Assembly: GCA_001599355.1 (NCBI GenBank)
Contig: BCGQ01000001.1
Coordinates: 1,615,135-1,679,134, forward strand
From: Nakazawaea peltata
Taxonomy: Eukaryota; Ascomycota; Pichiomycetes; Alaninales; Pachysolenaceae
DNA: 64,000 nt
Reading direction: 5' to 3'
Position numbers and translations under genes: made by a program. The notes below the pieces were generated by a model. That model saw only the letters and a program-made list of their open reading frames with translations. It was not told where the DNA came from and ran no database searches. How positions within the stretch are numbered: position 1 is the stretch's first letter; every line of letters begins with the position of its first letter. Shown here one piece after another: positions 1,627-60,966 of the stretch.

Positions 1627-3978
1627 ATGGCTCAACATAAAATCACCGTCAAATTAATCGGTGCCGAAGCATTGTATAAGCGGGATGTATTCAGATCTCC
1701 CGATCCATTCGCCGTATTGACCATCGATGGGTCTCAGACAAAAAGCACCACCGCCGCTAAGAGAACATTGAACCCTTTCTGGAATGAAACTTTTGAGTTC
1801 AATGCTAATGAGAATTCCATCTTGGTTATCCAAGTATTCGATCAGAAGAAGTTCAAGAAGAAGGATCAAGGTTTCCTTGGTGTCATCAACTTGAGAATTG
1901 GTCAAGTACTTGACTTTTCTTCCTTGGGTAATGTTGAAGAAACCACTACTGTCCCATTGAAAAGATCTAATGATAATTTGGAAGTGAGTGGTCAGTTAAT
2001 TTTGAGTCTTTCCACAGGTGGATCTTCCTCTACTGCTGGTGGATCCTCTGTGCTGGCATCTAATAGAGTTTCTAGTAGTAGCAGCTCTGTAGCACCGTCA
2101 GGTGCTCCATCTGGCAGACCTCCTTCAGGTGCCCCACCATCAGGAGCTCCTCCAACTTCAGAATCGTCTCTGTCAGCTTCCCTGGGCCTGGGAGCTCGTC
2201 AATATTCATCATTCGAAGATCAATTCGGTAGATTACCTCCTGGATTCGAGCGTCGTACCGATAACTTTGGTAGAACTTATTATGTCGACCACAATTCCAA
2301 AACAACTACTTGGAAGAGACCTTCATCGAGCCAATCTGAATCCGAAAGAGGCCAACTGAGAAGTAACGTCACAGAACTGGAAAGAATACAACATAGAGGT
2401 AGAACATTGCCTGGAGAAACTCCAACTTCTCCTGTTTCCCTGCCTCAATCCATCACAGTACAAACTTCTGGAGCTACTCCACTGGTGAATCCAAGTGTTG
2501 CTATGTCGATGGCTGCTTCCGGCTCTACAACTGCCGGTTTAGGTGAATTGCCATCTGGTTGGGAACAACGTTTGACTACCGAAGGAAGACCTTACTTTGT
2601 TGACCATAACACTAGAACAACCACATGGGTGGATCCACGTAGACAACAGTATATCCGTACAGTGGGACCAAATACCACAATACAGCAACAACCAGTATCA
2701 CAATTGGGTCCATTACCGTCCGGTTGGGAAATGCGTTTGACAAATACGCTGAGAGTCTACTTCGTCGATCATAATACCAAGACTACGACATGGGATGATC
2801 CTCGTTTGCCTTCCTCTTTGGATCAGAACGTTCCTCAGTATAAGCGTGACTTTAGAAGAAAGGTGATCTACTTCAGATCGCAACCTGCATTGAGAATTTT
2901 ACCAGGCCAGTGTCATATCAAGGTAAGAAGATCACATATCTTCGAGGACTCTTACCAAGAAATTATGAGACAGACTCCAGAGGACTTGAAGAAGCGTCTT
3001 ATGATCAAATTCGATGGAGAAGAAGGTTTGGATTACGGAGGAGTGTCTCGTGAGTTCTTCTTCTTACTTTCTCATGATATGTTCAATCCGTTCTACTGTC
3101 TTTTCGAGTACTCATCGCATGATAATTACACTTTACAAATCAACCCTAACTCTGGTGTGAACCCAGAGCATTTGAATTACTTCAAGTTCATTGGAAGAGT
3201 CGTTGGTTTGGGTGTATTCCATAGAAGATTCTTGGATCTGTTCTTTGTTGGTGCATTATATAAGATGATGTTGAGAAAGAAGGTTGTATTACAAGATATG
3301 GAAGGTGTGGATGCCGAATTCTACCGTTCGTTACAGTGGATTTTGGATAATGATATCACCGATATCTTGGAGTTGACCTTCAGTGCCGAGGATGAACGTT
3401 TCGGAGAGATTGTAACGATTGATTTAGTTGAAAACGGACGTAACATAGAAGTCACCGAAGAAAACAAACGTGAATATGTTGAGAAGATCACCGAATGGAA
3501 GATCTACGAGAGAGTCCAAGAACAATTCAAGCTGTTTATGGATGGATTCAACGAGTTGATTCCTCAAGATTTAGTAAACGTATTCGACGAAAGAGAATTG
3601 GAGTTGTTGATCGGAGGTTTGCTGGAGATCGATGTCGAAGATTGGAAGAAACATACCGATTACAGAGGATACCAAGAAAATGACGAGGTTATCCAATGGT
3701 TCTGGAGATGTATCAAAGAGTGGGATAGTGAACAAAAGGCCCGTTTGTTACAATTCACCACTGGTACCTCGAGAATCCCAGTCAATGGTTTCAAAGATTT
3801 ACAAGGTTCTGATGGACCAAGAAGATTCACTATTGAAAAGGCCGGTGAATCTAACCAATTACCAAAATCTCATACTTGTTTCAACAGAGTGGATTTACCA
3901 CCATACAAAGACTATGAGAGTTTGAAACAGAAGTTGACTTTGGCTGTTGAGGAAACCGTTGGTTTCGGTCAAGAGTGA
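1627..3978 (+). CDS. RSP5: RSP5, NEDD4-family HECT E3 ubiquitin ligase
   Basis: This 783-residue protein has the complete NEDD4 layout. An N-terminal C2 domain (about 5-125) binds membranes. A Ser/Pro/Gly-rich linker follows. Three WW domains bind PPxY motifs, starting near residues 203, 308 and 363. The HECT domain runs from about 420 to the end. The catalytic cysteine is C751 in the [16 protein letters not shown] motif. The yeast ortholog ubiquitinates plasma-membrane transporters through arrestin adaptors and also acts in endosomal sorting and lipid regulation. The length is close to the 809 residues of S. cerevisiae Rsp5. Codons 538, 636 and 666 are CTG where Rsp5 has alanine (LDAFF, FKAFMDG, GGIAEID), which is part of the evidence for CUG-Ala decoding. 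Confidence 0.97.
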
Positions 3979-4503
3979 GAAAGAAGAAAAGTGTCAAAAA
4001 TGAAAAAAAAATCTACATTAAGTTACGTTGGTATATCGTTAAATAAATTGTCTTTGCCTATCAAGACGTTCTGTACGGAGAGGGAAGTGGCTCAATCTAA
4101 GAATCTATACTTTAAACTATCGGCAACTCGGTGATCGATTCAGTTGTTCACTATGAACCGCAGTGCCTTGCACCGCCGTCTGATCTATTTCCGTTATTTT
4201 CGTTGATGCGAGGTCCTTCAAACTATCTATCTCCGTTAATCACGTAAAAATCTACATTTGTTAGTGAAGTAGTCTCTCGCATCTCGTTTAATTTTCCGAA
4301 GTATCTCCGCCGTTTAGTTCGTTCTGCTCAGCCTTAGCTCGGCGCTATTCTTTTCGCTGCAGTGTTGCGCATACAGAAAGCTTATTTGGAACTTAAAGTT
4401 GAGTCCCAAAGTTGAATTTGAGAACGAGGTTGGAAGAATATAAAAGGGGTGATGATGAGGGACATTTGAAATTGAACCACTCAGTTGAATAGATTTAGAA
4501 AGA
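3979..4503. promoter_or_regulatory. Promoter of first AIM2-like gene, with TATA box and CCG/CGG triplets
   Basis: This 525-bp gap carries TATAAAAGG at 4439-4447, 57-65 bp before the ATG. Upstream it is rich in CCG/CGG triplets (CGG at 4121 and 4129; CCG at 4158, 4173, 4176, 4191, 4232, 4296, 4307 and 4310), the half-site type bound by fungal zinc-cluster factors. The factor is unknown. No gene was seen. Confidence 0.5.
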
Positions 4504-5247
4504 ATGAGCGGAATCGGCCCTTGTTGCGCAAAGTACTCCTTCCACACTGGCACTCCTAAAGGAGAACATAAAGTTCTCTATGGATTGGATACGTATGTCC
4601 TGCACGGCTGTGATGCCGATGCCAAGAAAGTTATTGTTTGTTATACCGACATCCTTGGTAATAAGTTTAAGAACATGATGTTGTTGGCAGACAGATTAGC
4701 TGAGTTAGGTAAAGGTGAATACTTGGTAATTGTTCCTGATATCTTGAAAGGTGAGCCGTTCCCAAATGATGGAACTATCGATGTCTGGGAATGGTTTAAA
4801 GGTCATACTCCTGAAATCACCACTCCAATTGTTGAGAAATATATTGCTCAATTGAAGGAGGACTCTTCCCCAGAGTTTCTTGGTGCCATTGGATACTGTT
4901 TCGGTGGTACATATGTTGTCCAGGGAATTTCTTCTTCGAATATTCTTTACGATGCTGCTTGTATGGCTCATCCTGCATTACTCACTGACCCTGAATTTTC
5001 CAAAGATATTGTTCAACCATTTTGTATCTCTGCAGCTGAGAATGACCAGTTCTATCCAGCAGAGACCCGTCATGCTGTTGAACTGATCCTCAGCGAGAAA
5101 AAGGTTCCGTACCAATCTACTGTTTTCCAAGGAACTTCTCATGGTTACGCTGTTAAGGGAGACTATACAATTGAGGCCATTCTGTATGCAGCCAACAAGA
5201 CTCTGATTGACCACATTGCCTGGTTCGATCACTTCTCCAAGAAATAA
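4504..5247 (+). CDS. Dienelactone hydrolase family protein, Aim2-like, copy A
   Basis: This 247-residue alpha/beta hydrolase belongs to the dienelactone hydrolase (DLH) family and resembles S. cerevisiae Aim2 in length and motifs. The Cys-Asp-His triad is visible: C132 in GYCFGG, D181 in ENDQFYP and H213 in GTSHGYAVKGD. It is expected to be a soluble cytosolic hydrolase. The natural substrate of the yeast family is not established, and none can be inferred here. A paralog follows in the same direction 229 bp downstream, so this is a tandem duplication. The two copies have diverged strongly outside the motif blocks. Each has its own TATA box at the same distance from its start, so they are probably transcribed separately. 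Confidence 0.9.
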   Translation: MSGIGPCCAKYSFHTGTPKGEHKVLYGLDTYVLHGCDADAKKVIVCYTDILGNKFKNMMLLADRLAELGKGEYLVIVPDILKGEPFPNDGTIDVWEWFKGHTPEITTPIVEKYIAQLKEDSSPEFLGAIGYCFGGTYVVQGISSSNILYDAACMAHPALLTDPEFSKDIVQPFCISAAENDQFYPAETRHAVELILSEKKVPYQSTVFQGTSHGYAVKGDYTIEAILYAANKTLIDHIAWFDHFSKK

Positions 5248-5281
5248 AGCACTCAAATTTATTAATCGATGTAGATATCTT

Positions 5282-5417
5282 CGGCCCGTATCTCGGCATC
5301 TATCTCGGCTCGTGCGGCTCAAAATTATAAACCTTATTTGGGATCTGAAATCGCTACCGAACCCAATCTTTTCCTTTTTGCAGCAGATTCTAGAAAAGTT
5401 GTGGGAAAATATAAAAG
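5282..5417 (+). promoter_or_regulatory. CGG triplet array and TATA box before second AIM2-like gene
   Basis: CGG triplets start at 5282, 5294, 5306 and 5315. The first three form CGG-N9-CGG-N9-CGG on one strand. TATAAAAG lies at 5410-5417, about 60 bp before the ATG at 5477. The layout resembles the promoter of the first copy. It suggests a zinc-cluster regulator, but this is inference. Confidence 0.45.
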
Positions 5418-5476
5418 CCACAAAACTCGGCTCGACCCTTAAGTTTGAACAAACACAATTGAATACACTTAATAAC

Positions 5477-6190
5477 ATGTCCACTTGTTGCTTAGATTAC
5501 ACATTCCATGAAGGAACCCCAGTCGGTACTTGCGAAACCATCTTCGGCTTACCAAGTTATATCGTCGGACCAAAGGATTCAAAGAAGGTTATCGTCTTGA
5601 TGTCCGATATCTATGGTTACGATTTCAAGAACTTGGATTTGATCGCTGACAAATTCGCCCTGGAGGGTTACTATGTTTTGGTTCCAGATATTTTGGGAGG
5701 AGAAATTCTGGAAGAAGGTTGGGGTATGGACAAGTTATGGCCATATTTGCAAGCCAGAGAACCTTCTGTTACTAGACCAAAGGTTGAGAGTTACTTGAAG
5801 AAGGTTCGTGAAGAATTGAAGCCAACTTTTGTCGGTTCTGTCGGTTACTGTTTCGGTCTGAGATATACCTTGCAACAATTATCTAAAGACGGATTACTCG
5901 ATGCAGGAGCCATTGCGCACCCATCTTTAACCGAGGTTGAGGAGTACCTGCTGATTACTAAGCCATTACTTCTTTCTTGTGCTGAGATCGATACTGTTTT
6001 CAATGATGAATTGAGACTTAAGGCTACTGCTGCTGCTTTCCTGACCAAGGTTCCATTCCTTTACACTATGTTCAGTAACACTACTCATGGATTTGCTGTT
6101 AAGGGAGATTACTCTATTGATGAGGTTAAATTTGCTGGTCAAAAGGCATTGAAGGATCAAATTGAATGGTTCGCTAGATTTTCTAAATAA
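5477..6190 (+). CDS. Dienelactone hydrolase family protein, Aim2-like, copy B
   Basis: This 237-residue paralog of the upstream gene keeps the DLH triad: C125 in GYCFGL, D172 in AEIDTVF and H204 in NTTHGFAVKGD. The second Gly after the nucleophile motif in copy A is Leu here. This and several changes in the cap region suggest a different substrate preference. The start is the ATG at 5477, because it aligns with the start of copy A (MSTCC versus MSGIGPCC) and sits at the expected distance from the TATA box. The frame stays open further upstream, but that stretch overlaps the end of copy A and shows no similarity. It is a putative cytosolic hydrolase of unknown substrate. Confidence 0.9.
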   Translation: MSTCCLDYTFHEGTPVGTCETIFGLPSYIVGPKDSKKVIVLMSDIYGYDFKNLDLIADKFALEGYYVLVPDILGGEILEEGWGMDKLWPYLQAREPSVTRPKVESYLKKVREELKPTFVGSVGYCFGLRYTLQQLSKDGLLDAGAIAHPSLTEVEEYLLITKPLLLSCAEIDTVFNDELRLKATAAAFLTKVPFLYTMFSNTTHGFAVKGDYSIDEVKFAGQKALKDQIEWFARFSK

Positions 6191-6537
6191 GACAATGGAT
6201 TACTAAGGAAACACTAGATCTAAATCGAACAATTGTATTTAAGATAATGCACTCTAATCCGACCACCCCTAACCGTAGTGCATACAGCGCAGACCGCATT
6301 ACGTAATATAGTTCAGTTTGCCCCACATGTCCATTACGTAAGTTGGCCATACCTGCAACTACGGTAAACTACTTCCGATGAGCTCATAGCAACCGGAGAT
6401 AACATACCCAGATGAGCTATTCGGCAAGATCTCGAATGATATAAAAAGAGTCGAAATGACCCTCCACCCCAGTCATTAGTTATACATGCTCTACATCATT
6501 ACACCAACTATATCACCATAGACTTTTATCTTATACA
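6191..6537. promoter_or_regulatory. Convergent gap with promoter-like signals but no gene
   Basis: This 347-bp gap lies between two convergent genes and should hold only terminators. It nevertheless contains two TTACGTAA palindromes (6299-6306 and 6334-6341, the Yap/bZIP site type), several CGG/CCG triplets and a TATA-like TATAAAAAG at 6440-6448. After that there is only a 12-codon frame starting at 6486. See findings. Confidence 0.35.
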
Positions 6538-8787
6538 CTAATTCCACCTTATACCTCTATTGTACTCATTTGTTTGTCCCCTTCTTTGATCTTGTTGATA
6601 CCCTTGGTAGGAAGTATCTTCACGTGGACCATAAAATCCACGACCTGAGTTAGCTGTACTTCCTGATGAATTTGTACCACCCACGACACTTGTTGGTACC
6701 ACATAATTATTAGTACTATTTAATGAATCCCCCCTGTTTCTAGAGAAATCATCATTACTTTGAGCTACTAAATGCGAATATGGAGTCTCCTTCTGTAAAG
6801 TAGAATCATCATCAAGAGATGTCAATTGGTCGTTAGCACGACTATCAACCATCATGGAGTTTCTATCATGACCTCTCATAGCAGTAGCACCAAGAGCTGT
6901 CAATTCCAAATCGTTCAGTTTTTCACCTCCTTCGGTCTTTGGTAAGAATGACACTCTATCATCTTTCATTGGTTGGTATCTTGTATCTGGGTTCTTATAA
7001 ACGAACAGTAAGACACAAGTGACGATAGTGAAGATCAAAAGAACGAAACTGAAGATGGCATTTAAGACAAACAAAACCACAGCCATAACAGAAGAAACAA
7101 CGGCTGGTTGTCCAAAGATGTTGGAGAAGAAGACATAGAAAATAGAGTTCAACAAATTGACTGTAGCAATCAAGATATTGAAAACGTTAGTTCTCTTATC
7201 CATATATGGTTTCTTCCAACATAACAGGATGAAGTAAGCCAACTCAATGACAAATACAATAATCGATTGAGCCTTACCTTGAGATTGTAAAACGGCCACA
7301 AACAATGAGCGTAAGACTACATGGGCCAAAACTACGATAATCCACCAATACTTGTCGGCTCTGAATTGGACATAAAGGAATCCGAATCTGTTCAAGACTT
7401 TAGCATCTCCGAACAACAAATAAGCTGGGTTCTTGTATAATTTGATCGAAGATCTGGCGATGAAATATAATCTTACAGCAGCTTGGATCAACAAGCCGAG
7501 GAAAATGACTAAGAAACAAACAGCCACAACGACACAAGCAGCCGAATCTTGAACTGTTAACTCCCAGAAACATAATAAAGACACTTGAGGCAACAGTAAA
7601 AGAGCCAATCTGTATAAAACACCTTTGGTGACGGCAGACCAATGTTTACGGTACTCAGCATATTTTCCTTCACGCATGACTTTGGTACGGACTAACAACT
7701 CGACAATACCCTTGAATAAGAACAAAAGAACAAGGACAATGAACGAGAAGAAGATCAAGAAGATAAGACCTGTCAAGAAAATATTGGAAATCTCGATAGA
7801 GGCCTTATACAGAACTCTTTGGATACCTCTTAAGACAAGAATTTTAGAGTAGATACTTGAACTTGACTCGTCAGTAGTGTACAAATCTGAGTCATCCAAG
7901 TTGTCATCGTAATCGTAATCGCCTCTACGAACTAAACCACTGACAGCTTGAGTAAGTAAGTCTCTCTTTTGAACGGAAATACTTAATAAAGTCTTGTTCA
8001 AAAGAATGGCAGTAGATGAACCACCAGTGGCTTGAACGTACCAGTTTGAAATACTTTGGATTGTGTTGGACTTGATAATTCCTAAAGCCCAAACGAAATT
8101 TTGAGCCCAAGCTGCGGCAATTGGAGGTACTCTTGACACAGCCATCATTGAAGTAATAGCGAGACCTTGGAAGTAAATGAAAAGCGATAAGGAGTTGGAT
8201 GCAATATGAGCAGCAGTATTGGAGTGACCTACGATAGAAATGACACCGGATGCAATCAAACCCAAACCTGAAATAGCAGCAATAGGCCAAGCAGCATATT
8301 TGGTCTGAACTGTCTTACCGTTGGAAAGAATGGCCTCGACACAAGCCAATGGAGTGTCGGTGTCATTAACAGCATAACCAATGACTCTGACACGGGCATC
8401 TAAATCTGGAATAGTATAAGCAATACCAGGGATGATACTACTGATACTATCGGATAAAGTATACGAGGAATCAACCTCAATGTGACCAGAAGCCATAGGA
8501 CAAAGAGAGGAATAACCCAAGTCACAAAGAGCGATGTTCTCGGTCAAGATAGTGATACCGTAAACAATCAACTCAATATGAGCCTCGATATCAGCATTAA
8601 TAGTCGAGACAGCCGATATATCGAAATTGATCTTATTGTTGGACGGAGTATATTTGACATCGAAGAAAGAAGCAGTCAACTGGGAGTCGGACATACAAGT
8701 CAAAAGCGATGTTGCCGAGATATAATTCTCAGCGAGAGCGAGTCTCAACACAGAGATCAACAATATGATTCTCTGGAGTACTAACAT
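6538..8787 (-). CDS. FLC/TRP-like family polytopic membrane protein
   Basis: This 749-residue protein belongs to the fungal Flc family (Flc1-3 in S. cerevisiae, Pkd2/Trp proteins in S. pombe). The family is implicated in FAD transport into the ER, calcium homeostasis and cell-wall maintenance. The ATG at 8787 gives a clean signal peptide (MLVLQRIILLISVLRLALA); the frame extends five codons further only through a TTG. The N-terminal 19-165 region is the ML-like lumenal domain with paired cysteines. About nine membrane segments follow (TRP-like domain, roughly 170-600). A hydrophilic Ser/Asn/Asp-rich cytosolic tail ends the protein. A long loop with an acidic Asp/Tyr run sits near residue 295. 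Which paralog it matches best (Flc2 is most likely by length) cannot be decided by eye. Confidence 0.88.
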   Translation of the reverse strand: MLVLQRIILLISVLRLALAENYISATSLLTCMSDSQLTASFFDVKYTPSNNKINFDISAVSTINADIEAHIELIVYGITILTENIALCDLGYSSLCPMASGHIEVDSSYTLSDSISSIIPGIAYTIPDLDARVRVIGYAVNDTDTPLACVEAILSNGKTVQTKYAAWPIAAISGLGLIASGVISIVGHSNTAAHIASNSLSLFIYFQGLAITSMMAVSRVPPIAAAWAQNFVWALGIIKSNTIQSISNWYVQATGGSSTAILLNKTLLSISVQKRDLLTQAVSGLVRRGDYDYDDNLDDSDLYTTDESSSSIYSKILVLRGIQRVLYKASIEISNIFLTGLIFLIFFSFIVLVLLFLFKGIVELLVRTKVMREGKYAEYRKHWSAVTKGVLYRLALLLLPQVSLLCFWELTVQDSAACVVVAVCFLVIFLGLLIQAAVRLYFIARSSIKLYKNPAYLLFGDAKVLNRFGFLYVQFRADKYWWIIVVLAHVVLRSLFVAVLQSQGKAQSIIVFVIELAYFILLCWKKPYMDKRTNVFNILIATVNLLNSIFYVFFSNIFGQPAVVSSVMAVVLFVLNAIFSFVLLIFTIVTCVLLFVYKNPDTRYQPMKDDRVSFLPKTEGGEKLNDLELTALGATAMRGHDRNSMMVDSRANDQLTSLDDDSTLQKETPYSHLVAQSNDDFSRNRGDSLNSTNNYVVPTSVVGGTNSSGSTANSGRGFYGPREDTSYQGYQQDQRRGQTNEYNRGIRWN

Positions 8788-9832
8788 TGTGTGATATGGC
8801 AACGATCAACTCTGAATCGGTTTCTTCTAATAGCGTTTAGGTATATAAATAGAAGGAAAATTAGGGAAAAAAAAGGTTGTTGATCTGCCTTTTTTTACAG
8901 CGCAGAAAAAAAATTTTACTGGAAAGGGGCAGGACAAGGATTGAGGGGATGTATGAGACAGAGGAGGGTGAAGGAGGTTATGAGTACGTTGAGATGGAAA
9001 GTTGAGATGGAAAGTTGAGATAGGTAGTTAGATGAGAGGTTGGGATGGCTGTATGCGAGAAGTAGTTCTTTAGATCGATTTAATTTCCATCTCATATCTC
9101 TCTGTACTACCTCCATCATCTAGATCTTGCCCTAGGGCAAGGGCCTGTTTGTTTATCTATTACTATCAGCCCAATCTATGTACTAGCGAAAAGACAGATC
9201 ATACAGTACTTTTTGCGCCTACGTCATTTTTACTTTCTTTTTTTAACAACAGATTTGAGTGTCGGGGCAGGAAAGAAAAAGAAAAGAAATGTGAGAGAAG
9301 CATTAGAGAAGGGGATAATTATTATAGTACTATTAAGAGACTGTGAAGAGGGCTGTAAAGAGTATTGCATAGAGTGCTGTAAAGAATTATGGGCACGGGT
9401 TAGTTAATGGAGGTTCGTAAGATTCTGCTTGGTATCCCAGCGTAGTAAATCTACTCCTTCGGAAATCTTACTTTGGTAGGAAATGTGACTCTCTGTTGGC
9501 CCTACTCCTCACCTCTCCACACCTTTATAGTTCGCCTAGCTCCTTACCTCACACATTTAGTTCCTGCCTCTTCTTTTAGCGCGCTTTTCATTTCCACTTT
9601 TCTGTACACCGCCTTGTTCAGTAATACACGACCTTATTTGTGTGTACCACACTTTCGATATTTTTACACGACCTTCTCTGCCGATGGAAATCACCTTCAC
9701 TTTCTCCGATCATTATTATCAAATCTCTTATCTGTACGACTGCATTAATACCGGATGGTATATAAAGTCATCATGTCCATCAAATCTCTAAATCTTCTCT
9801 GTCATAGACCCTAAGTAATTCATCCTGTAGAC
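8788..9832. promoter_or_regulatory. Divergent promoter region FLC / carbamoylase homolog
   Basis: The 1045-bp gap contains a 13-bp near-tandem repeat (unit GTTGAGATGGAAA, about 8985-9020) and poly-A/T tracts near 8870-8915 on the FLC side. TATATAAAG at 9759-9767 stands 66-74 bp before the hydrolase start. No conserved ORF or RNA gene was recognised. Confidence 0.5.
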
Positions 9833-10798
9833 ATGGGAGTAAGACAATTCAAACTTGCTGGTGTCCAATTGGGACCTATTCGAAAGGCTACACCTAAACA
9901 GGAAACAGTTCAACGTTTATGTAAATTACTTAACCAGTGTGCAGACCAAGGATGTCTGTTGCTGGTATTCCCAGAATTGGCATTAACCTCTTTTTTTCCA
10001 AGATGGTACATTGAATCCGAAGAAGAAGTAGATTCGTACTGCGAAAAGGGGGATATCACCAAAGGGGCTTTAAAACCTCTCTTTGAGTTAGCAAAGGCCA
10101 GAAATATCGGATTCTGGATCGGATATGCCGAATTGACCGATGAAGGTAAAAGATTCAACGCTTCTGTTTTAGTAGACAATAAAGGACAAGTCGTTTCTAA
10201 ATACAGAAAAGCTCATTTACCCGGCTTTGACGAACCTACAGAAGGGATCCCCTTCCAGCAATTGGAAAAGAGATATTTCGAGTATGGAGACCTTGGTTTC
10301 CAGCTGGTCAGAACTAACCCGGAATGGATCGATAGTGTTGTTGGACAGTTAATTTGTAATGACCGCAGATGGCCAGAGGCTTGGAGATGCTACCTGTTAC
10401 AAGGAATGGATTTATGCCTCAACGGCTATAATACTGCAGCAAACGGGACCTCATTGTTCGGATCTAAAGAGAACAAAGAATTACGGATTTATCACAGTGA
10501 CTTGAGTACAAAATCAAATGCATACTTCAACAGTTGTTTTGCCGTCTCTGTGGCCAAATGTGGAGACGAAGATGGTCAAGGTTTGATTGGTGGTTCTTTA
10601 ATTGTAGATTGTAATGGGATTGTTTTAAGTCAAGCAAAGACTGAAGATGATGAGATCTTTACCGCAGATATCGATCTTGATGAACTGTTGAATGGTAAGA
10701 AGAAGATGTTTGATTTCTCTCGTCATAGAAGACCAGAATTTTATGGTAGATTAGTTGAGCAAAAGGGAAGTATTGAACTTCCACCATATTCAGGATAG
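9833..10798 (+). CDS. Nitrilase-superfamily amidohydrolase, N-carbamoyl-D-amino-acid hydrolase type
   Basis: This 321-residue protein closely resembles bacterial N-carbamoyl-D-amino-acid amidohydrolases (for example the Agrobacterium enzyme). Shared blocks are VFPELALTSFFPRW, KYRKAHLPG, FQQLEKRYFEYGDLGF and ICNDRRWPEAWR. The Glu-Lys-Cys triad is present as E48, K126 and C175. The bacterial enzymes hydrolyse N-carbamoyl-D-amino acids to the D-amino acid, CO2 and ammonia, and act in hydantoin degradation. Typical yeast nitrilases (Nit2, Nit3, Nta1) lack the DRRWPEAWR block. The gene has its own TATA box and host-like codon use. It may have entered a yeast ancestor by transfer from bacteria; this is inference. 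Activity on beta-ureidopropionate or another carbamoyl amide is an alternative. The protein is expected to be cytosolic, with no targeting signal. Confidence 0.88.
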   Translation: MGVRQFKLAGVQLGPIRKATPKQETVQRLCKLLNQCADQGCLLLVFPELALTSFFPRWYIESEEEVDSYCEKGDITKGALKPLFELAKARNIGFWIGYAELTDEGKRFNASVLVDNKGQVVSKYRKAHLPGFDEPTEGIPFQQLEKRYFEYGDLGFQLVRTNPEWIDSVVGQLICNDRRWPEAWRCYLLQGMDLCLNGYNTAANGTSLFGSKENKELRIYHSDLSTKSNAYFNSCFAVSVAKCGDEDGQGLIGGSLIVDCNGIVLSQAKTEDDEIFTADIDLDELLNGKKKMFDFSRHRRPEFYGRLVEQKGSIELPPYSG

Positions 10799-10856
10799 AT
10801 AGAGAATTAGATAGAGAATAAGATAGAGAATTAGATAGAGAATTAGATAGAGAATT
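10797..10856 (+). repeat. Five 12-bp tandem repeats overlapping the hydrolase stop codon
   Basis: The unit AGATAGAGAATT is repeated five times (copy 2 ends in TA). The first copy starts inside the TAG stop codon. It would lie in the 3' untranslated region. Confidence 0.9.
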
Positions 10857-17200: not shown

Positions 17201-17263
17201 AAAGAACAAGTAATATACATTATAAGGACTATATACCGCAATATATACAAAGATACCCCCCAT

Positions 17264-38838: not shown

Positions 38839-38872
38839 AAGGCTAAGTGAGATCGCAAACACCCAATTAACC

Positions 38873-39508: not shown

Positions 39509-39548
39509 ATCGATATCATAAAAACAAAATAAACATTCATTATAGTAT

Positions 39549-50328: not shown

Positions 50329-50604
50329 TACAAAGTGAAGTAGATAGTGAAGTAGATGAATATAATTATGTTTATAAAGAGATAGTAGCTGTATTTATAT
50401 CGTTGGGAATCGTCTGAACCCCTCCTTTTTGGAATATACACATTTGAATTGATAAAGGGGTGACCTTGTACATAATTGAATCAAATTTCATGCATGTCCT
50501 TAAACTTTAAATTGGTTTGATTATGCACAAGATCTGGGAAGGTGCAGGTATTGGATACCAAATTTGATGAAAAGGGTGATGAGATACACAGAGAATTGGG
50601 GTGA

Positions 50605-52539: not shown

Positions 52540-52589
52540 GTAGAGAAGTAATAGCATTAATATTTATCTGAAGGATTGTAGAGGGGTAG

Positions 52590-52645
52590 ATTGTGAAGGA
52601 GGTGCATAAAGGGGTGAATTGTAAAGGAGATGCATAAAGAGGCTA
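52590..52645 (+). repeat. Two imperfect 28-bp tandem repeats between WHI2 and ERS1
   Basis: The unit spans 52590-52617 and repeats at 52618-52645 with several substitutions, sharing AGG, TGCATAAA and GG blocks. It lies in the convergent 3' region. Confidence 0.75.
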
Positions 52646-52751
52646 TAAAGTTCTTTAAATAATAAAGGGGGAATAAAGTTCAATTAGATATAAAGGGGCT
52701 ACAAAGTTTAATTAATAACCAATATCATGCATTATAATAATAAATAGTTAA

Positions 52752-53669
52752 TTATTTAAGAGACCTCTCTGATTCGCGACGGGAGATCCTTCCTTGCTTC
52801 TGTTGTTCCTCCTCATCTTCAATTGAACCGTATCTGACACTATCAATATCACCAATGGTCTCTTCTTCATCTTCTCTAATACGAGGTGGACCATCAATAC
52901 TAGAATCACTGGCATTGTAATACCAATAGTAATGTTGGAGGAAGAACAAGACGTTGGCACATAATGCCTCGACACTCAACAAGAATTTAGGCAAGTTTTT
53001 GAACATGTTCTTCATGTTGTGACTAATGTAGGCGTCCAAGGCCAATTGGGTCAAAGAAAGACTACCACCAGCAGTGTCTAAATAGATGATCAGAATAGGC
53101 CAATAACGAGTTGATTTCCTGCGGTAGTTATATGATAATTGACCATAATTCTTAAGAACAGACATGAGGATTTTGAGCAAACCGAGCCATTCGAGAAGAT
53201 CTAACCAACGGAAACCCAGCGAATCATTGGTACCCACGATGTAACCTGCGAGACACAGAATAACCACAGCCATTGTCAGAATGGTAGTTCTGGCAAATTT
53301 GGAAAGAACTTGCTCAGGATTCTTCTTATAAGTCTTTGGTCTATACAGTTGCGATAAGGTCAACAGATTAACCGCCAAACCATGAAGAGCAAAGATGAAA
53401 TCATTGACCTTGATAAGAGGTAAACGTGGAGTTTCATCAGTCGGGAGCGTATACTTATCACTAAACTCTTGACGAATATATGGACTGAATACAAGACAAC
53501 CAAAATACAGCGTGTAGAAAATGTAACCGATGAAGTTGAAGTAGAGGAAATCGATAGAAAGCCCCTGAACACTGCGGAGCTTCATATTGGTCAATACTGG
53601 TGGCCAGAAGCCACAACTCCAGATCAAAGTATATGAATACCCGATGAATGTAGAGATTTCCTGAAGCAT
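52752..53669 (-). CDS. ERS1: ERS1, cystinosin-family PQ-loop cystine transporter
   Basis: This 305-residue protein has seven predicted membrane segments and the PQ-loop layout of cystinosin. The first loop motif WPPVLTNMKLRSVQGLSIDFLYFNFIGYIFYTLY aligns with cystinosin, where Pro-Gln is here Pro-Pro. The second repeat lies near residues 185-220 (KSTRYWPILIIYLDTAGGSLSLTQLALD). A cytosolic Glu/Asp-rich tail ends the protein. Yeast Ers1 is a vacuolar/endosomal protein thought to move cystine out with protons. The gene is divergent from MCY1, a cysteine synthase, over a 247-bp promoter, which fits a shared sulfur-amino-acid role. Confidence 0.85.
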   Translation of the reverse strand: MLQEISTFIGYSYTLIWSCGFWPPVLTNMKLRSVQGLSIDFLYFNFIGYIFYTLYFGCLVFSPYIRQEFSDKYTLPTDETPRLPLIKVNDFIFALHGLAVNLLTLSQLYRPKTYKKNPEQVLSKFARTTILTMAVVILCLAGYIVGTNDSLGFRWLDLLEWLGLLKILMSVLKNYGQLSYNYRRKSTRYWPILIIYLDTAGGSLSLTQLALDAYISHNMKNMFKNLPKFLLSVEALCANVLFFLQHYYWYYNASDSSIDGPPRIREDEEETIGDIDSVRYGSIEDEEEQQKQGRISRRESERSLK

Positions 53670-53916
53670 CTTATTAACCTGCTTATGTTTCCCTATACTT
53701 CAAGACTTGCCCCAAATATATAGTACGGCTTCATCCTGATAAGCAATATATTTGCCGATCGGGAAAAGATCGGGTATCAGAGCTTATCATCCGTTGGTAA
53801 ATCGCTCATTGAGCGATTTACGAATACGGAATTTGATCACGTGACATCGCGTGCAAAACTCGAGTCTGCTTCGATTTTGGTTAAATTTCAAAGTCAGATT
53901 GAAGGTAGTTTAGTTG
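53670..53916. promoter_or_regulatory. Divergent ERS1 / MCY1 promoter with TCACGTGA and a 23-bp palindrome
   Basis: CACGTG lies at 53848-53853 inside TCACGTGA, the yeast Cbf1 site type used with Met4 in sulfur-amino-acid genes. A perfect 23-bp palindrome (11+1+11) spans 53808-53830, with arms TAAATCGCTCA. Both are between the two starts. Confidence 0.6.
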
Positions 53917-55047
53917 ATGAAAGTTAAGATGCTTTCACGTATTCAAGTTAAAAGAGTTGTCCAGAATGGACTGAGAGCCAGTACTCGTATGCAATCAACT
54001 TTAAAAGTCCCATTTGTGCCTTTAGTTGCCGAGGGAGGATTTGCTGATGCCATTGGTAACACTCCATTGGTTAAGATCAACCGTTTATCGAAGGAATTGG
54101 GTAGAAATATCTGGGGAAAAGCCGAATGGATGAATCCAGGTGGATCTGTTAAGGACAGAGCTGCACTTTTCATGATTCAAAAAGCTGAGGAACGTGGTTT
54201 AATCAAGGAAGGTGCCACTATCGTCGAAGGAACAGCTGGTAATACTGGTATTGGATTGGCTCATGTATGTCGTGCTAGAGGATACAAGTGTGTTATTTAC
54301 ATGCCAAATACTCAAGCTCCATCTAAGATTGAGTTATTGAAGTTGCTCGGCGCTGAGGTTTACCCTGTCCCAGTTGTCCCATACGATGATCCTATGAACT
54401 TCAACCACCAAGCCAAACGTCATGCTGAAAGTTTACCTAACGCTTACTGGACGAACCAATTTGATAACTTGGACAACAGACAAGCCCATATTGAGACTAC
54501 TGGACCTGAAATCTGGGCTCAATTGAACGGTCAAGTCGACGCTTTCACTTGTTCTACCGGTACCGGAGGTACTTTTGCTGGTATCACCAGATACTTGAAG
54601 GAGATCTCAAATGGTCGTGTATTATCCATTGTAGCTGATCCTCCAGGATCTTGTGTCTACTCTTATGTCAAATCTAAAGGTGAATCTCTTGCCAGAGAAG
54701 GGGGTTCGTTCACCGAGGGAATCGGACAAGGAAGAATTACCAACAACAATGCTCAAGACATTGATAGTGCTGATGATGCCGTCAGAGTTCCAGATTCCGA
54801 GTCGATTAAGATGGTCTACAGATTATTGGATGAAGAAGGAATCTACGTAGGAGGTACTTCTGCCTTGAATGTTGTAGCAGCAGCTGAAGTAGCGAAGGCT
54901 TTACCTGAGGGATCTAATGTGGTTACCATTTTGGCCGATTCTTCTCATAAATATGCCGACAGAGTCTTCTCGAAGAAATGGTTGGAATCCAAGAACCTTT
55001 ACGATGCTATTCCTGAGCATTTGAAGAAGTATATTTCATTGGAGTAA
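53917..55047 (+). CDS. MCY1: MCY1, mitochondrial cysteine synthase-like PLP enzyme
   Basis: The 376-residue protein begins with a basic presequence ([24 protein letters not shown]) pointing to mitochondria. ATG 53917 and ATG 53929 are both plausible starts. The fold-type II PLP core follows, with [13 protein letters not shown], the PLP lysine in [10 protein letters not shown], the substrate loop [15 protein letters not shown] and the phosphate-binding [10 protein letters not shown]. These match yeast Mcy1 (YGR012W, 393 residues), an outer-membrane-associated cysteine synthase homolog. The reaction would be O-acetylserine plus sulfide giving cysteine. Its stop is only 4 bp from the stop of the convergent PPS1 gene. 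Confidence 0.92.
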
Positions 55048-55051
55048 ATAA

Positions 55052-58000
55052 TCAATGACTAATATAAGCTTTATTTAAATTGTAGATCTCTTTACAGAGA
55101 ACATTCCAATCGACTTCTCTTATCCATTTATGATTATTGGTAATTAAGGTGTTTTCGAGGGGAGTATCGTAGCGATATTCGACTGGAGGAGCCGGATTTT
55201 CCGATATAAATTCCATAACATCATCTTCATCATCAGAAACGAGTACTGCTGTTTTTGAAGAGGTCTTGATACCTGTTGTGGAGGTTTCTTTGACTCTAAA
55301 TGAGAAGAAATTAGTATCGATATTATTATCGGGAGTTGAAGAAATGCTTGTAGATAAAGAGGAGCGGGAAAATGAGTTCTTCCCAGGGGGACCTGAGGTT
55401 GAAAAGAGGGAGTTGAAACTTTCACGGTCTCTTACGTTTCCCAGCATTTCATCTGTGAGCCCAGCAAGTCTTATACGATTTCTTTCCTTCACTACGTTCT
55501 CTTCCCATTTGAAAAGCTCGTAGGTGAGCTTCAAATTAGGCTGGATAATCACATTAAGACGACGAACCCGAACGAAAAGATATGCTCTGATGAGACTTAC
55601 ATTCAATCTATGCATTACTTCGGCAATACAAACAGTTGCGGATCTGGAAACTCCAACTTGACAATGAACTAATGTCTTTTCTCCCTTATCGTAGCCTTCT
55701 TCTATGAACAGAAGGGCATCTTTGAGGGTATTAGTGAGAGTTCCGATTCCGTCATCGTTGATATTGGTGATATGCATCACAGAAGTCACATGACAAAGAT
55801 CTTTAATGGTGGGGTCGGAGCTACGAGGTTCTACGAGGTCGAATATTTCACAACCTGTCTGAGTGGTCCTTACGGTGAAATCATAGTCTGATAACCAACC
55901 AAGCCGTTCACCTACGGAAACGATCCTGGTTATATCTAAAGCTCTAAGGACGTCTAAATCACTAGCATGACCTAAAGAGCCAAGATAAAGATGAGGAAGA
56001 ATACGAGAAGGTAAAGACCCGTAGACACGGGAAAAGCAGCCATTCAACAGTGATTGTGGGACCCCCAGATCTTCGTCTAAAGATTCATCCGAATCACTAT
56101 CATCATAAGAGTCATCAAGGATACGGAAGAAGGCATTTTGATCGATTTTCTTAGGGATGAAGATCGATAACATCATGTCTTTGTCGATTATATCCAAACG
56201 AGGTTCAAATACGTAGCCTTCTCTGAGAGGAGAACAACGACAGAGAAATTTCTGGATCTTGTCGAGGAAAATATAGTCACTTTTGAAGATGAAGAAAGGT
56301 CTGCCATGAGTAGAATGAAGTTGAGAGATGGCTTCGTCTACGGAGATGTTTTGGGAGTAGATGAGGAAACAAAGTCCAAGGAGAGAACTCTCACTATAAC
56401 CATCTTGACAATAAATGAGCCCACTGAAATTTGATTGGGAGGAGTTTTCGAGATACGGCCCGCCGCATCTGAAATATAAAAGCTTGCAAAGGTTGACTAT
56501 ACTTGAGATATGATCTTCTTTGAGGTCACCAATGGCCACTGAACCTGAAGGAGGGAATTCTATATGGATAGTTTCATAATAATCATCGATAGAGTGGACT
56601 AAATAGTCATGGAGTTCAACTAAGGATGGGAATTTGGCTCCCTCACAACAGTCGACGAATAATCTCCAATATTTCTTAGGTTTGTTGAAGAGAAGCAGTT
56701 CCACACCGATGAGGTTTGGATCTGCCGAGTCTAATTCGTCCAGGGTTACAGTCGTGATGGTATTAGAAGGACTACAGTACAATGGGATGGCGTTTTGAGT
56801 GGGTTGGAGTTGATGAGAAGGTGGTTGTTCGATCAATGGGTGTCTTTTCTCAGCTTCATAACTGTATTTGGATTGGAAAAGTTCGAAATCTGATCTATTC
56901 CCATACCAGACGTCACGAACAACATGAGTAGCCGACGACATCTTACCTATTTCGAGTCTTTCTTTGTATAAAGTATTCATGCTCCAATCTTTGAACATTT
57001 GTTCACAGTAGATCGAGGTGTCGGCTTGGAATTCGTCAAGAGTCATTGGTCTAATGGAGACGAGTCGGTCAGCATCGAGGTCGATGTTGTAATTATCGAG
57101 GATGAAGACATTGTAATGGAGTGAAGGTATCTCTGGGAGGGTATGTTGTTGTTTGATTTGGGCTATTTTAAGTAATCTCAGTAGTGATTTGCAAGCACAC
57201 GAACCGGGCTTATTGAAACAATACACGACAAAGTCGGACACATGACTGATTTTACTGGTTTGGATGTGGAAGTTACGAAGGCTTATACCATTGGGAGGAT
57301 CGAGGTCATGGAAAATCGGAAGCAATTGAAGCCGAATACAGTCTTCGACTATGAGGTCTTTGTTCAAATTAGGGGATTCCTCTATTTTGAGAGAGGTGAA
57401 GAGGGAATCTATGGTAGAGTTGAGGACAGATTCATTGAAATTGAGAGATTTCAAGACGTCTTCAGCATCTATTGAGCCTTTAAGGAAACCTGAACTTGTT
57501 AGATATGGGGCTTCTAAAGGACAAGACCTTATTAGAGTGAGGAAACGGGCTTTATCTACAGGCAGACGAACCGAATCGAGTCCACTAGCTTCCCTTGTAT
57601 GTGAGAGGAACTTCCGTTGAGCAAAATTGGACCTGTGAAGTCCATGAAGCCATGGGAACATATCATTGACGTCAGGAAGATCTTGTTGGTAATAATAATT
57701 GATCAGTTTGACGAATTGCAGACTTGTGAGATGACGGATGTTATGAGTGAAATGCTTAAGACTCTCTGTGAAGGGAGATGGGTGTTGAAGAGAATAGATA
57801 CCTTTAGATTCTAGACGGGGATGACCTGTAGCGGTGACAGGGAGCAGCGGCAGTGGTACCGATGTGGTGATTGACGTCACTTCTTGGTATTTAGCTCTGA
57901 ATTTATCCCTAGTATCGGTCGATGTCGAACTGCTTGAACGTTTACAACCTTTCTTAGTGTTTGACAGTATGAATTTTGGCTTGACAGCGTCTGAGATAGT

Positions 58001-58303
58001 ATTATTACCAGCAAATGGTTGTACTTTGAAGATGGTATCGGCAGTAGAAGCTGCAACGGCAGCAGCAGTATCAGAAGCAACAGAAGCCGCAGCAGCAGCA
58101 GGATCTGCAATGGTAGCAGTAGTGGCGGGAACGGCAGCGGCAGCAGAAAAACTGCCCTCAAAAGTTCTGCCCCCTTCCATTTTAAAAGGCTGCCCCTTAA
58201 GCGATTCGGAAGTCTTGTCCCTTATCTCCTTATCGTTATCAAAAGCAGCCGACTCGGTCTGACTAAGAGAAGTCGTCTGTGATTGGGACGGTGAAACACT
58301 CAT
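55052..58303 (-). CDS. PPS1: PPS1, dual-specificity protein phosphatase
   Basis: This 1083-residue protein ends in a dual-specificity phosphatase domain. The P-loop is HCQVGVSRSAT with C881, and the domain is preceded by HLYLGSLGHASDLDVLRALDITRIVSVGE. Upstream lies a second phosphatase-like domain around residues 575-680, typical of Pps1, where it is inactive. The N-terminal 150 residues are Ala/Ser/Thr-rich and disordered. Yeast Pps1 (807 residues) acts in S-phase control. The extra length comes from the N-terminal part and the acidic tail. The start is the ATG at 58303; a TTG-based extension was rejected. Its promoter has a 21-nt block shared with YAE1. Confidence 0.88.
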   Translation of the reverse strand: MSVSPSQSQTTSLSQTESAAFDNDKEIRDKTSESLKGQPFKMEGGRTFEGSFSAAAAVPATTATIADPAAAAASVASDTAAAVAASTADTIFKVQPFAGNNTISDAVKPKFILSNTKKGCKRSSSSTSTDTRDKFRAKYQEVTSITTSVPLPLLPVTATGHPRLESKGIYSLQHPSPFTESLKHFTHNIRHLTSLQFVKLINYYYQQDLPDVNDMFPWLHGLHRSNFAQRKFLSHTREASGLDSVRLPVDKARFLTLIRSCPLEAPYLTSSGFLKGSIDAEDVLKSLNFNESVLNSTIDSLFTSLKIEESPNLNKDLIVEDCIRLQLLPIFHDLDPPNGISLRNFHIQTSKISHVSDFVVYCFNKPGSCACKSLLRLLKIAQIKQQHTLPEIPSLHYNVFILDNYNIDLDADRLVSIRPMTLDEFQADTSIYCEQMFKDWSMNTLYKERLEIGKMSSATHVVRDVWYGNRSDFELFQSKYSYEAEKRHPLIEQPPSHQLQPTQNAIPLYCSPSNTITTVTLDELDSADPNLIGVELLLFNKPKKYWRLFVDCCEGAKFPSLVELHDYLVHSIDDYYETIHIEFPPSGSVAIGDLKEDHISSIVNLCKLLYFRCGGPYLENSSQSNFSGLIYCQDGYSESSLLGLCFLIYSQNISVDEAISQLHSTHGRPFFIFKSDYIFLDKIQKFLCRCSPLREGYVFEPRLDIIDKDMMLSIFIPKKIDQNAFFRILDDSYDDSDSDESLDEDLGVPQSLLNGCFSRVYGSLPSRILPHLYLGSLGHASDLDVLRALDITRIVSVGERLGWLSDYDFTVRTTQTGCEIFDLVEPRSSDPTIKDLCHVTSVMHITNINDDGIGTLTNTLKDALLFIEEGYDKGEKTLVHCQVGVSRSATVCIAEVMHRLNVSLIRAYLFVRVRRLNVIIQPNLKLTYELFKWEENVVKERNRIRLAGLTDEMLGNVRDRESFNSLFSTSGPPGKNSFSRSSLSTSISSTPDNNIDTNFFSFRVKETSTTGIKTSSKTAVLVSDDEDDVMEFISENPAPPVEYRYDTPLENTLITNNHKWIREVDWNVLCKEIYNLNKAYISH

Positions 58304-58681
58304 TCTCAGTTCCAACAAAGTGTTACACAAAGTTTCAACACACTATAATGGTCTCAAAACTTCCCTTTAATATATCGAATTATTAATCTTCTCCGTCACG
58401 GAAACTAATCTTCTCCAGCTCTAAAATCTTCTCCTCCTTCCCGCCTGATCTTGTTTTTTTTTCCTTTGTTTTGTGTGTGAGCTTATGCAGAAATAATTTC
58501 CTAAAGGGGTAATGCAGCTGGCGCTAATTGAGGGCATAAACGGTGATTTCGCTGATACGATGTGCACGACCTTTTGAAAGGTTATGAGCCCACGATAGGG
58601 GTTAGAGGGGTTAGAGAAATGTTAGAGGGAGGTCAGAGAGGGGTCCTACAAGTGTTTCATCTATATTATATTCATGCAATA
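58304..58681. promoter_or_regulatory. PPS1 promoter and UTP18 3' region
   Basis: The block ATTAATCTTCTCCGTCACGGA at 58382-58402 differs by one base from the block before YAE1. Further TCTTCTCC half-sites follow at about 58408 and 58427. Near UTP18, G-rich repeats of GGGGTTAGA type occur (58598-58645). Confidence 0.5.
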
Positions 58682-60325
58682 CTAATAATGGTTCAATCTC
58701 CATAAGGTGACCTTTCCCAGTTCATTTCCAACACATAATAACTCCTTGTTAGGACTGAAACAACAAGCCGTCACTTTACCCAAAGGAGTTCCACTGGTTG
58801 GCCAATTGGAGAATACTTTGAAGCTTGGGAGATGTACGATACGTAAGGCATCTCTTTTAGCTCTACTTGCAATACATAACATTTGACCATCTGGAGAGAA
58901 CAGTAAACTGGAAATCGTCGTTACTAAATTCTCAATTACTCCTACAGGTTTTTTGTTATTTTTCTTGGAGGTACGATCATAAATGTTAACGATTCCTACG
59001 TTATTACCGATCAGGATCCATTTGTTGTTGATTCCTCCAATCTTGACTTTAGTGATTCCAACTCCCGAGTCATCTTTCCATTTTCCGAGAATCTTTTCAC
59101 TGTGTACGTTCCATTCCCAAACGTCTCCACTTGAGTTGACAGCGACCAAAATGACTTCTTTGGAGTCAGGGTTTACACTGAAATCGATATCTACTAAAGT
59201 TCCTTCAATTTTAAATCCTTTGATCCAAACTCCTGTTGAACCATTTAAGATATTAATCCACCCGGAATTACCCATCAATCCGATGTAAGCTCCATCACTT
59301 GACACTTTGAAATTCTCAAACGATCTTTGAGTTGACTCATGACCGTACATTCTGGATACTTTCTCCAATTCTCCGGTATGGATATCCCATTTGTACATGA
59401 ATTTACGTCTTCCTCCCGCATAGATCTTATCAGAACTTTGGAAAGAAGCAGATTGGATTGGTGAATTTCTCAAATGCAATGAGGTGACAAAATTGTTCAG
59501 TTTTCCATCGATATGATACACTCTGAGAGTTCTATCGTAGCCTCCTGTAAGCAATAATGGTTGTGTAGGATGGAAAGAGAGTGCTTGGATCAGAGACTTC
59601 GATATTCTTCTATAATTGGCGTCCTTTAACCTAGCAATATCCAACTTGTTGGAAGGTAATAATTTGAATGCTGATTGTGTTTTGAGGGAATGAGATTGGT
59701 TGGTTTCGAGGAACTTTAATAAAGCATTTGAGCTATTAACTGAACTGTGATCATCTTCATTATCGTCCTCACCTTCTTCATCTTCACTTTCAATATGGTC
59801 GGCCCATTCAGGTCTTTGATATATCTTGACAAATTGAGCTCTTAATCTATTCACATAACTTTTACCTGATATTATTGTTTCTGTGTCGTGACGCCTCAAT
59901 TTTTTCAACTTGTCCGAGGAATAAAGAGATATATCAATCTTTTCATCATCTGAATCATGCCAAGCAGCATCATCTTCGGACTCAGACTCTGATTCTGTCA
60001 TGGACTCACCTTCTTCAGAGGCTTCTTCATTTTCAGAATCAACGTCCATCTCATCCAGATTCCCGTCATCTACAAAATAAAGCATATCATCTTGCATCCC
60101 TTCCACCAATTTATCGTCATCGCTATCTGAATCATGCTCTCCTTCACTGGCAGATGATACGCCGTCCACTTCTTCTTCACTTGAATAGTCGTATAAATTA
60201 TCAATCTTCTTTAAGTTGGTCTCAAATCCTTTGATATCACCGAAAACGAGTTTTTCCAACTCCAATTCCTCTTCATCCTTCGGAGGAATCACAATATCTC
60301 CCTTTTCAACCAAAGCCGGCGCCAT
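58682..60325 (-). CDS. UTP18: UTP18, WD40 component of the small-subunit processome
   Basis: This 547-residue protein matches Utp18 (594 in yeast). The N terminus contains ELEKLVFGD and an acidic region with many Glu/Asp runs, then WADHIESEDEE. The WD40 propeller begins near residue 235 with HPTQPLLLTGGYDRTLRVYHIDGK. Also typical are YAGGRRKFMYKWDIHTGELEKVSRMYGHE and the C-terminal CFSPNKELLCVGNELGKVTLWRLNHY. Utp18 belongs to the UTP-B subcomplex, acts in the nucleolus in 18S rRNA maturation, and recruits Mtr4 through an arch-interaction motif. Its promoter has the ribosome-biogenesis elements described next. Confidence 0.95.
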   Translation of the reverse strand: MAPALVEKGDIVIPPKDEEELELEKLVFGDIKGFETNLKKIDNLYDYSSEEEVDGVSSASEGEHDSDSDDDKLVEGMQDDMLYFVDDGNLDEMDVDSENEEASEEGESMTESESESEDDAAWHDSDDEKIDISLYSSDKLKKLRRHDTETIISGKSYVNRLRAQFVKIYQRPEWADHIESEDEEGEDDNEDDHSSVNSSNALLKFLETNQSHSLKTQSAFKLLPSNKLDIARLKDANYRRISKSLIQALSFHPTQPLLLTGGYDRTLRVYHIDGKLNNFVTSLHLRNSPIQSASFQSSDKIYAGGRRKFMYKWDIHTGELEKVSRMYGHESTQRSFENFKVSSDGAYIGLMGNSGWINILNGSTGVWIKGFKIEGTLVDIDFSVNPDSKEVILVAVNSSGDVWEWNVHSEKILGKWKDDSGVGITKVKIGGINNKWILIGNNVGIVNIYDRTSKKNNKKPVGVIENLVTTISSLLFSPDGQMLCIASRAKRDALRIVHLPSFKVFSNWPTSGTPLGKVTACCFSPNKELLCVGNELGKVTLWRLNHY

Positions 60326-60540
60326 CTCTCTTGATATCTGACCTTTTTCAACAGCTCATCTGTCTCATCGAGGGGGTTTTCTTAGAAGGTGAAAAAAAAT
60401 TTTTTAGGAGAAATTTTTTTCTTGGGATTTTTGGCGATTGTGCACGACTTTGGTTAAATTGGAGAAAAAAATGAAAAAGGAGAAATGAAAAGGGCAAGAA
60501 GGAGACCCCTTTACAGGATACGGAGACCCCTTTAAGCAAG
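60326..60540. promoter_or_regulatory. Divergent UTP18 / COA3 promoter with PAC- and RRPE-like elements
   Basis: On the UTP18 side, CTCATCG (the PAC core, reverse of CGATGAG) lies at 60364-60370. The block A8T6 at 60392-60405 fits the RRPE element. These two elements mark yeast ribosome-biogenesis genes, which fits UTP18. Confidence 0.55.
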
Positions 60541-60966
60541 ATGAGATCGTCATTTATCAGATTAGCGTAAGTTTGTGCATGAGGGAAGTAGATGGAGATT
60601 AAGTTTGAACTTTGTTCTAGTCAGTGACTAGTCTTGGACAGACTAAGACTAATTCGTTTGCTTCGGTCTTTGCTTTTGGCATATGATCATACTAACTCCC
60701 TTTATAGAAGAGGTGACCCATACTTCAACAGTTACAATTTCACCATGACCCCTCTGATGTTGAGGGCCAGAAGACCTTACTTCTGGAAAAATCTGTCTCT
60801 GTTTGTTGTTCTTTCAGCTATCTCTTTGAGTGTATATGTCTACACTTTCTCATTCTTAACCCAGGATGACTTCGGAGATATTCCAATTCCTCCAGTCAGT
60901 GATGAAGATTTGGCTAAGTTGCAGAAGGATTATAAGGAAGGTAAGATTTTGAGTAAGAAGGATTAG
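60541..60966 (+). CDS. COA3: COA3, cytochrome oxidase assembly factor, two exons
   Basis: Exons are 60541-60566 and 60708-60966. Joined they give 94 residues starting MRSSFIRLARGDPYFNSYNF. The intronless frame in this region has no ATG before the conserved part. The core TPxMLRARRPYFWKN, one membrane segment (about residues 37-57), and DIPIPPVSDEDLAKLQKDY match yeast Coa3 (85 residues). Coa3 is an inner-membrane protein that binds newly made Cox1 with Cox14 and limits Mss51-dependent Cox1 translation. CTG at 60754-60756 falls on the Ala of the TPAMIRAR motif. The gene shares a 215-bp divergent promoter with UTP18. Confidence 0.92.
60567..60707 (+). other. COA3 intron (141 nt)
   Basis: GTAAGT donor at 60567-60572, TACTAAC at 60690-60696 and acceptor AG at 60706-60707, 12 nt after the branch A. 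Confidence 0.92.

Follow-up and report, generated by a model that had tools for sequence, protein, structure and literature searches.

Evidence that a nuclear genome reads CUG as alanine

In the yeast genome considered here, CUG very probably stands for alanine and not for leucine. The stretch from which the analysis started, called the window below, is 64,000 nucleotides long (G000:C1:1615135-1679134, from a genome with 11 contigs totalling 11.63 Mb; GC 40.7%), and the subject is the meaning of the CTG codons in its genes. Most of the CTGs that can be aligned with orthologues stand at alanine sites, and elsewhere in the genome lies a transfer RNA (tRNA) gene with the anticodon CAG and the elements of an alanine tRNA. 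Given G3:U70 and A73 in this tRNA and the placing of the aligned CTGs, the genome would therefore use the nuclear CUG-Ala code, NCBI table 26 (probability about 0.98), with the CAG-anticodon tRNA, bearing the alanyl-tRNA synthetase (AlaRS) determinant G3:U70 together with A73, charged with alanine and decoding CUG. The CUG-Ala code is real but not new, having been published already for Pachysolen, Nakazawaea and Peterozyma (PMC5951914).

CTG codons and alanine sites

The genes of the window include RSP5, acetyl-CoA synthetase (ACS), LYS9, ARP3 and TOR, named by means of Pfam profiles and alignments with PDB chains. The alignments give molecule names only, and the species attached to the chains are presumed. 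The coding content is as follows.

1627..62659, no strand assigned: 30 protein-coding open reading frames (ORFs) with 241 CTG codons, 15.7 per 1000, by codon count

An earlier note on this DNA had placed 13 CTG codons of six genes at invariant alanines, and every one of them is indeed CTG in the frame of the gene named.

3238..3240, + strand: CTG in RSP5; RSP5 chains shown have Ala, ITCH/NEDD4-like chains Thr/Gly
3532..3534, + strand: CTG in RSP5; Ala in 5/5 chains shown
3622..3624, + strand: CTG in RSP5; RSP5 chains shown have Ala, ITCH/NEDD4-like chains Gln/Gly
12400..12402, + strand: CTG in ACS; Ala in 5/5 chains shown
12568..12570, + strand: CTG in ACS; Ala in 5/5 chains shown
12643..12645, + strand: CTG in ACS; Ala in 5/5 chains shown
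24860..24862, + strand: CTG in LYS9; Ala in 4/5 chains shown, the fifth and distant one (3abi, E 7.5e-5) having Ser
41692..41694, + strand: CTG in ARP3; Ala in 5/5 ARP3 chains shown
48040..48042, + strand: CTG in TOR; Ala in 4/4 chains shown (two TOR2, two mTOR)
48166..48168, + strand: CTG in TOR (WYKAWHNW); Ala in 4/4 chains shown
49021..49023, + strand: CTG in TOR (NQAWDIYY); Ala in 4/4 chains shown
49816..49818, + strand: CTG in TOR (CFEAAILREK); TOR2 chain 6emk has Ala and mTOR has Val, while the part shown of 5fvm stops short of the site
60754..60756, + strand: CTG in COA3, residue 4; immediately before the Pfam match, which spans residues 5-45, and in no alignment

The nearest reference chain has alanine, as had been claimed for the orthologues, at all 12 of the sites that fall inside aligned regions. 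The word 'invariant' suits nine of these 12, where all chains shown have alanine apart from the distant serine at LYS9, and is too strong at 3238, 3622 and 49816. Two of the motifs quoted with the codons were wrong, the translation being GGLAEID, not GGIAEID, and TPAMLRAR, not TPAMIRAR.

The cited codons had been hand-picked from the 241 CTGs of the 30 window genes, and therefore every CTG in the aligned parts was counted. The alignments took in the C-terminal 1009 residues of TOR (its first 1513 lie outside), the C-terminal 417 of RSP5, the ACS, LYS9 and ARP3 ORFs and a fragment of SLA2 from elsewhere in the genome. The targets were sequences of solved structures, and the script compared each protein with a single yeast chain as reference. 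The five window proteins of the tally are five of the six genes of the earlier note, and SLA2 was chosen after its translation had been seen to be rich in CTG and alanine. Together the whole RSP5 ORF, the TOR part, ACS, LYS9, ARP3 and SLA2 contain 74 CTGs (45 in the window, 29 in SLA2), and 58 of them were counted (32 and 26); the remainder are eight in the part of RSP5 outside the alignment, one in ACS upstream of the aligned region, four at the end of TOR and three in SLA2 opposite gaps.

Alanine stands opposite 22 of the 32 CTGs in window genes (TOR 11/17, RSP5 4/4, ACS 4/5, LYS9 2/3, ARP3 1/3), and leucine and serine opposite none. Three further CTGs at the end of TOR, placed by eye, lie opposite Glu, Glu and Asn, which makes 22/35 for the window genes. 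SLA2 gives 15/26 opposite alanine with one leucine and one serine, and the combined count is 37/58 with the same single leucine and single serine (binomial p = 1e-28 against a background of 7.0% alanine). Columns dominated by leucine or serine, the outcome that would speak against the interpretation of CUG as alanine, were looked for, and alanine dominates instead.

As controls in the same alignments, GCN codons lie opposite alanine in 111/155 cases, the other leucine codons opposite leucine in 240/289 and serine codons opposite serine in 124/203. CTG and GCN do not differ detectably in their agreement with alanine (Fisher p 0.32). When the likelihood of each of the 20 residues was calculated with emission frequencies taken from the other codons, alanine scored +83.2 bits, followed by cysteine at -14.7, with serine at -30.5 and leucine at -184.6.

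Domain profiles give the same answer. Pfam profiles were scored with CTG as alanine (table 26) in all 30 genes, and as leucine (table 1) and serine (table 12) in 15 of them, chosen from a list of domains and CTGs before any leucine or serine score was known. The sums use 23 main-domain rows, weaker overlapping families being excluded. Alanine scores above leucine in 15/15 genes (+130.5 bits) and above serine in 13/15 (+51.6 bits); by row, one of the 23 prefers leucine and one is tied. In the 10 genes that do not figure in the earlier note, alanine exceeds leucine in all 10 (+63.1 bits) and serine in eight (+17.7 bits), as summed by hand.

The gene models used in the tally invite some separate remarks. 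The listed LYS9 ORF (24506-25489) starts at an internal Met equivalent to residue 140 of chain 2axq, and its frame runs on upstream past a likely intron (window 23500-24506, + strand; GTANGT at 24009, TACTAAC at 24142). The listed ARP3 ORF likewise starts short, lacking about 68 residues from the N terminus of chain 3dwl, and its frame continues upstream past a likely intron (window 41000-41395, + strand; GTANGT at 41186, TACTAAC at 41227). The SLA2 fragment has 349 codons, 29 of them CTG, and a match to MAT alpha1 adjoins SLA2 near G000:C4 145775 (L123); this contig also carries the CAG tRNA.

The CAG-anticodon tRNA and the CUN codon box

ARAGORN reports no tRNA within the window. An alanine-type tRNA with a CAG anticodon, for which the earlier note had proposed a search, was sought across the genome, and one was found.

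G000:C4:81426-81498, + strand: CAG-anticodon tRNA gene, outside the window; located by an anticodon/T-loop pattern, ARAGORN and BLAST

The pattern used on the genome combines a CAG anticodon with a T loop after it; it matched 81 sites, and its reversed form 53. Two of the 81 look like tRNAs by eye, namely the CAG tRNA and a tRNA-Leu(AAG) that matched through its anticodon stem, and ARAGORN, applied to 35 of the 81 sites, agreed. A BLAST search with the CAG tRNA (E up to 10) yielded no hit other than itself. The gene has G3:U70, A73 and a short variable loop, AGGTC, in place of a long variable arm, and a poly-T run lies 3' of it. G3:U70 directs AlaRS. Among 26 tRNA types compared, the CAG tRNA included, this pair is limited to the CAG tRNA and two ordinary alanine tRNAs; the comparison left out the intron-bearing Lys, Trp and Ser(TGA) tRNAs, and several tRNA types of the genome were never found. 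By its elements the gene is a predicted alanine tRNA, and we infer that its product would be charged with alanine and would then read CUG. The earlier note had named a CAG tRNA with leucine identity elements as a second possible refutation of its reading, and this check did not refute it either.

Neither a tRNA-Leu(CAG) nor a tRNA-Ser(CAG) was seen among the 81 anticodon/T-loop matches or among eight sites with a Leu-type D arm. These eight, found with up to three mismatches by a search that is blind to a D arm of other length, carry the anticodons CAA (five, one of them in an intron-bearing gene), TAA (two) and AAG (one), so that none has CAG or TAG. The other tRNA able to misread CUG as leucine is tRNA-Leu(UAG). 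Of two patterns designed for TAG, one matched 16 sites (its reversed form 30) and the other 15 (reversed 10). Inspection by eye recognized no tRNA-Leu among them, and tRNA-Ser(AGA) accounts for three of the 16. BLAST of tRNA-Leu(AAG) found only itself. As the general tRNA search scored 63 of its 608 candidates, absence of tRNA-Leu(UAG) from the genome is therefore likely, not proved. With neither tRNA-Leu(CAG) nor tRNA-Leu(UAG) found, tRNA-Leu(AAG), presumably as IAG, would be left to serve CUU, CUC and the nearly unused CUA.

Codon usage may be set beside this. Per 1000 codons, CTA occurs 1.0 times in the window genes and 1.6 times in a set of 154 ORFs, and CTG 15.7 and 19.7 times; the 154 ORFs are stop-to-stop frames of at least 150 codons and may include false ones. 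CTG supplies 241 of the 1064 alanine codons in the 30 window genes, GCC 217. The share of CTG among alanine codons, set against the TTG bias of each gene, gives a rho of -0.20 (p 0.32; 27 of 30 genes). According to PMC5951914, CUG is relatively rare in clades that have changed their code and tends to be kept away from well conserved sites. The high use of CTG seen here, conserved alanine sites included, contrasts with that general statement, one species having been measured. CUA is under-represented in the CUG-Ser clades according to PMC6701816, which did not include the CUG-Ala clade. The titles and abstract openings surveyed hold no report on tRNA-Leu(UAG) in the CUG-Ala clade, subscription papers and supplements lying outside the reach of the survey.

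The gene adjoining the CAG tRNA (L097 1..1131, - strand) resembles, by eye, an exo-beta-1,3-glucanase (EXG1-like). The window also holds an adjacent pair of dienelactone hydrolase genes with the same orientation (4504-6190, + strand).

Alternative readings and the origin of the tRNA

Several observations weigh against alanine. Twenty-one of the 58 aligned CTGs lie opposite other residues. Among the Pfam scores, the C2 row of RSP5 prefers leucine by 0.1 bit, three weak overlapping tyrosine phosphatase families, outside the sums, prefer leucine by 0.2 to 1.5 bits, and ATP12 and an ApoO-domain gene prefer serine by 0.6 and 0.7 bits. A context test without orthologues, in which neighbouring residues predict the meaning of CTG (1140 sites in 154 ORFs, 30 of them from the window), gave its top four places to Lys, Gln, Pro and Leu and left alanine outside the best eight. 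This test found the right residue for just three of 12 control codons (GCA, TCT and TCA; it was wrong for GCT, GCC, CTT, CTC, TTG, TTA, ACT, GGT and GTT) and was for that reason discarded as evidence on CTG. With so small a part of the candidates scored in the general search, the absences of tRNAs rest on pattern searches. Finally, the CAG tRNA has, beside G3:U70, features that favour leucyl-tRNA synthetase (LeuRS), A35 and A73 (PMC8629427) and G37 (PMC5951914, PMC8645108), so that a low level of leucine is conceivable.

As yeast LeuRS recognizes A35, G37 and A73, CUG might be mainly alanine but measurably ambiguous with leucine. G37, present here, has been blamed for the low leucylation of the C. 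albicans tRNA-Ser(CAG) (PMC5951914, PMC8645108). Such ambiguity is nevertheless unlikely: Pachysolen tannophilus is described as inserting alanine at >99%, an earlier report of 10% leucine being called mistaken (PMC8645108), and CTG lies opposite alanine here about as often as GCN does.

A serine meaning, as in the CUG-Ser1 and CUG-Ser2 yeasts, with the alanine sites arising by chance, is very improbable. Serine and alanine are exchangeable at small-residue sites, and two of the 15 genes score marginally better with serine, but a single aligned CTG out of 58 faces serine, against the 124/203 of true serine codons. Furthermore, the single CAG tRNA that was found lacks a long variable arm and carries G3:U70 and A73, whereas the three serine tRNAs compared have C3:G70, G73 and long variable arms. 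The earlier judgement that serine is unlikely is borne out by this count and this tRNA. The standard code, with the cited sites as lucky picks, is more improbable still, as the ARAGORN label 'Leu' for the CAG tRNA follows from its anticodon and the fourth rank of leucine comes from the context test whose controls failed, while one CTG in 58 faces leucine against 240/289 for other leucine codons, leucine scores below alanine in all 15 genes and the pattern searches found no long-armed tRNA-Leu(CAG).

Alanine is the preferred meaning of CUG, and how the alanine-type CAG tRNA arose is a separate matter. According to PMC5951914 the CAG tRNA of the CUG-Ala clade is a tRNA-Ala with a mutated anticodon. 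By identity over the longer length, the nearest tRNA in this genome is Val(UAC) (52/74), followed by Ala(AGC) (49/73), Ala(UGC) (48) and Leu(AAG) (53/82). The D arm and anticodon stem lean towards Val (17/20 and 9/14, against 13 and 6 for Ala(AGC)), and the acceptor and the variable loop with T arm towards Ala(AGC) (11/15 and 19/22, against 9 and 16 for Val). Fifteen sites are common only to the CAG tRNA and Val(UAC) and 14 only to it and Ala(AGC); the split between arms is not significant (Fisher p 0.066). A joint reading, tentative and rather doubtful, is that the gene is a remodelled or mosaic one and not a simple change of anticodon in a tRNA-Ala, with a Val-type D arm and anticodon stem and an Ala-type variable loop, T arm and acceptor (G3:U70). 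It might then have come from a tRNA-Val(CAC), one anticodon base away, the code being locked afterwards by loss of tRNA-Leu(UAG), which would leave CUG unambiguous and CUA rare. The genome tRNA searches found no Val(CAC) or Val(AAC) gene that could help to decide between a Val and an Ala origin. The present data do not overturn the published tRNA-Ala origin (PMC5951914).

One candidate was rejected in the course of these searches: an intron-bearing tRNA at G000:C7:154352 (L120), called Val(CAC) by ARAGORN, is on inspection by eye a tRNA-Leu(CAA). Killer plasmids have been put forward as a hypothesis for the code change (PMC5951914); a PF03175 search for killer-plasmid DNA polymerases gave no match, its positive controls being silent as well.

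In practice, proteins of this genome need to be translated with table 26, as the standard table turns each CTG into a false leucine. For the evolution of the code, the useful points are the high use of CTG, conserved alanine sites included, and the apparent lack of a tRNA-Leu(UAG). The latter would allow a test of whether clearing the CUN box of its U34 leucine tRNA fixes a reassigned CUG. Both points, like the mixed character of the CAG tRNA, are leads only.

Comparison with known systems

The standard code would place CTG opposite leucine, and the two serine codes would place it opposite serine and supply a long-armed tRNA-Ser(CAG); the alignments and tRNA searches described above returned none of these patterns. 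In the CUG-Ser2 yeasts (Ascoidea, Saccharomycopsis) CUG has likewise been reassigned through a new CAG tRNA. The residue there is serine, and four of the five species studied retain a tRNA-Leu(CAG) alongside (PMC5951914), whereas none was found here. CUG-Ser1 (Candida) is similar in that CUG leaves leucine by way of a new CAG tRNA, and CUA is under-represented there too (PMC6701816). It differs in inserting serine and in deriving the new tRNA from a tRNA-Ser (PMC5951914).

The closest likeness is to the CUG-Ala code of Pachysolen, Nakazawaea and Peterozyma. In the NCBI taxonomy these genera make up the Pachysolenaceae, within the order Alaninales. CTG aligned with alanine and a CAG tRNA with alanine elements including G3:U70 are common to that code and this genome, the pattern searches made here showed no tRNA-Leu(CAG), and no feature seen here contradicts membership. 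From the code and the tRNA we infer that the genome belongs to this clade.

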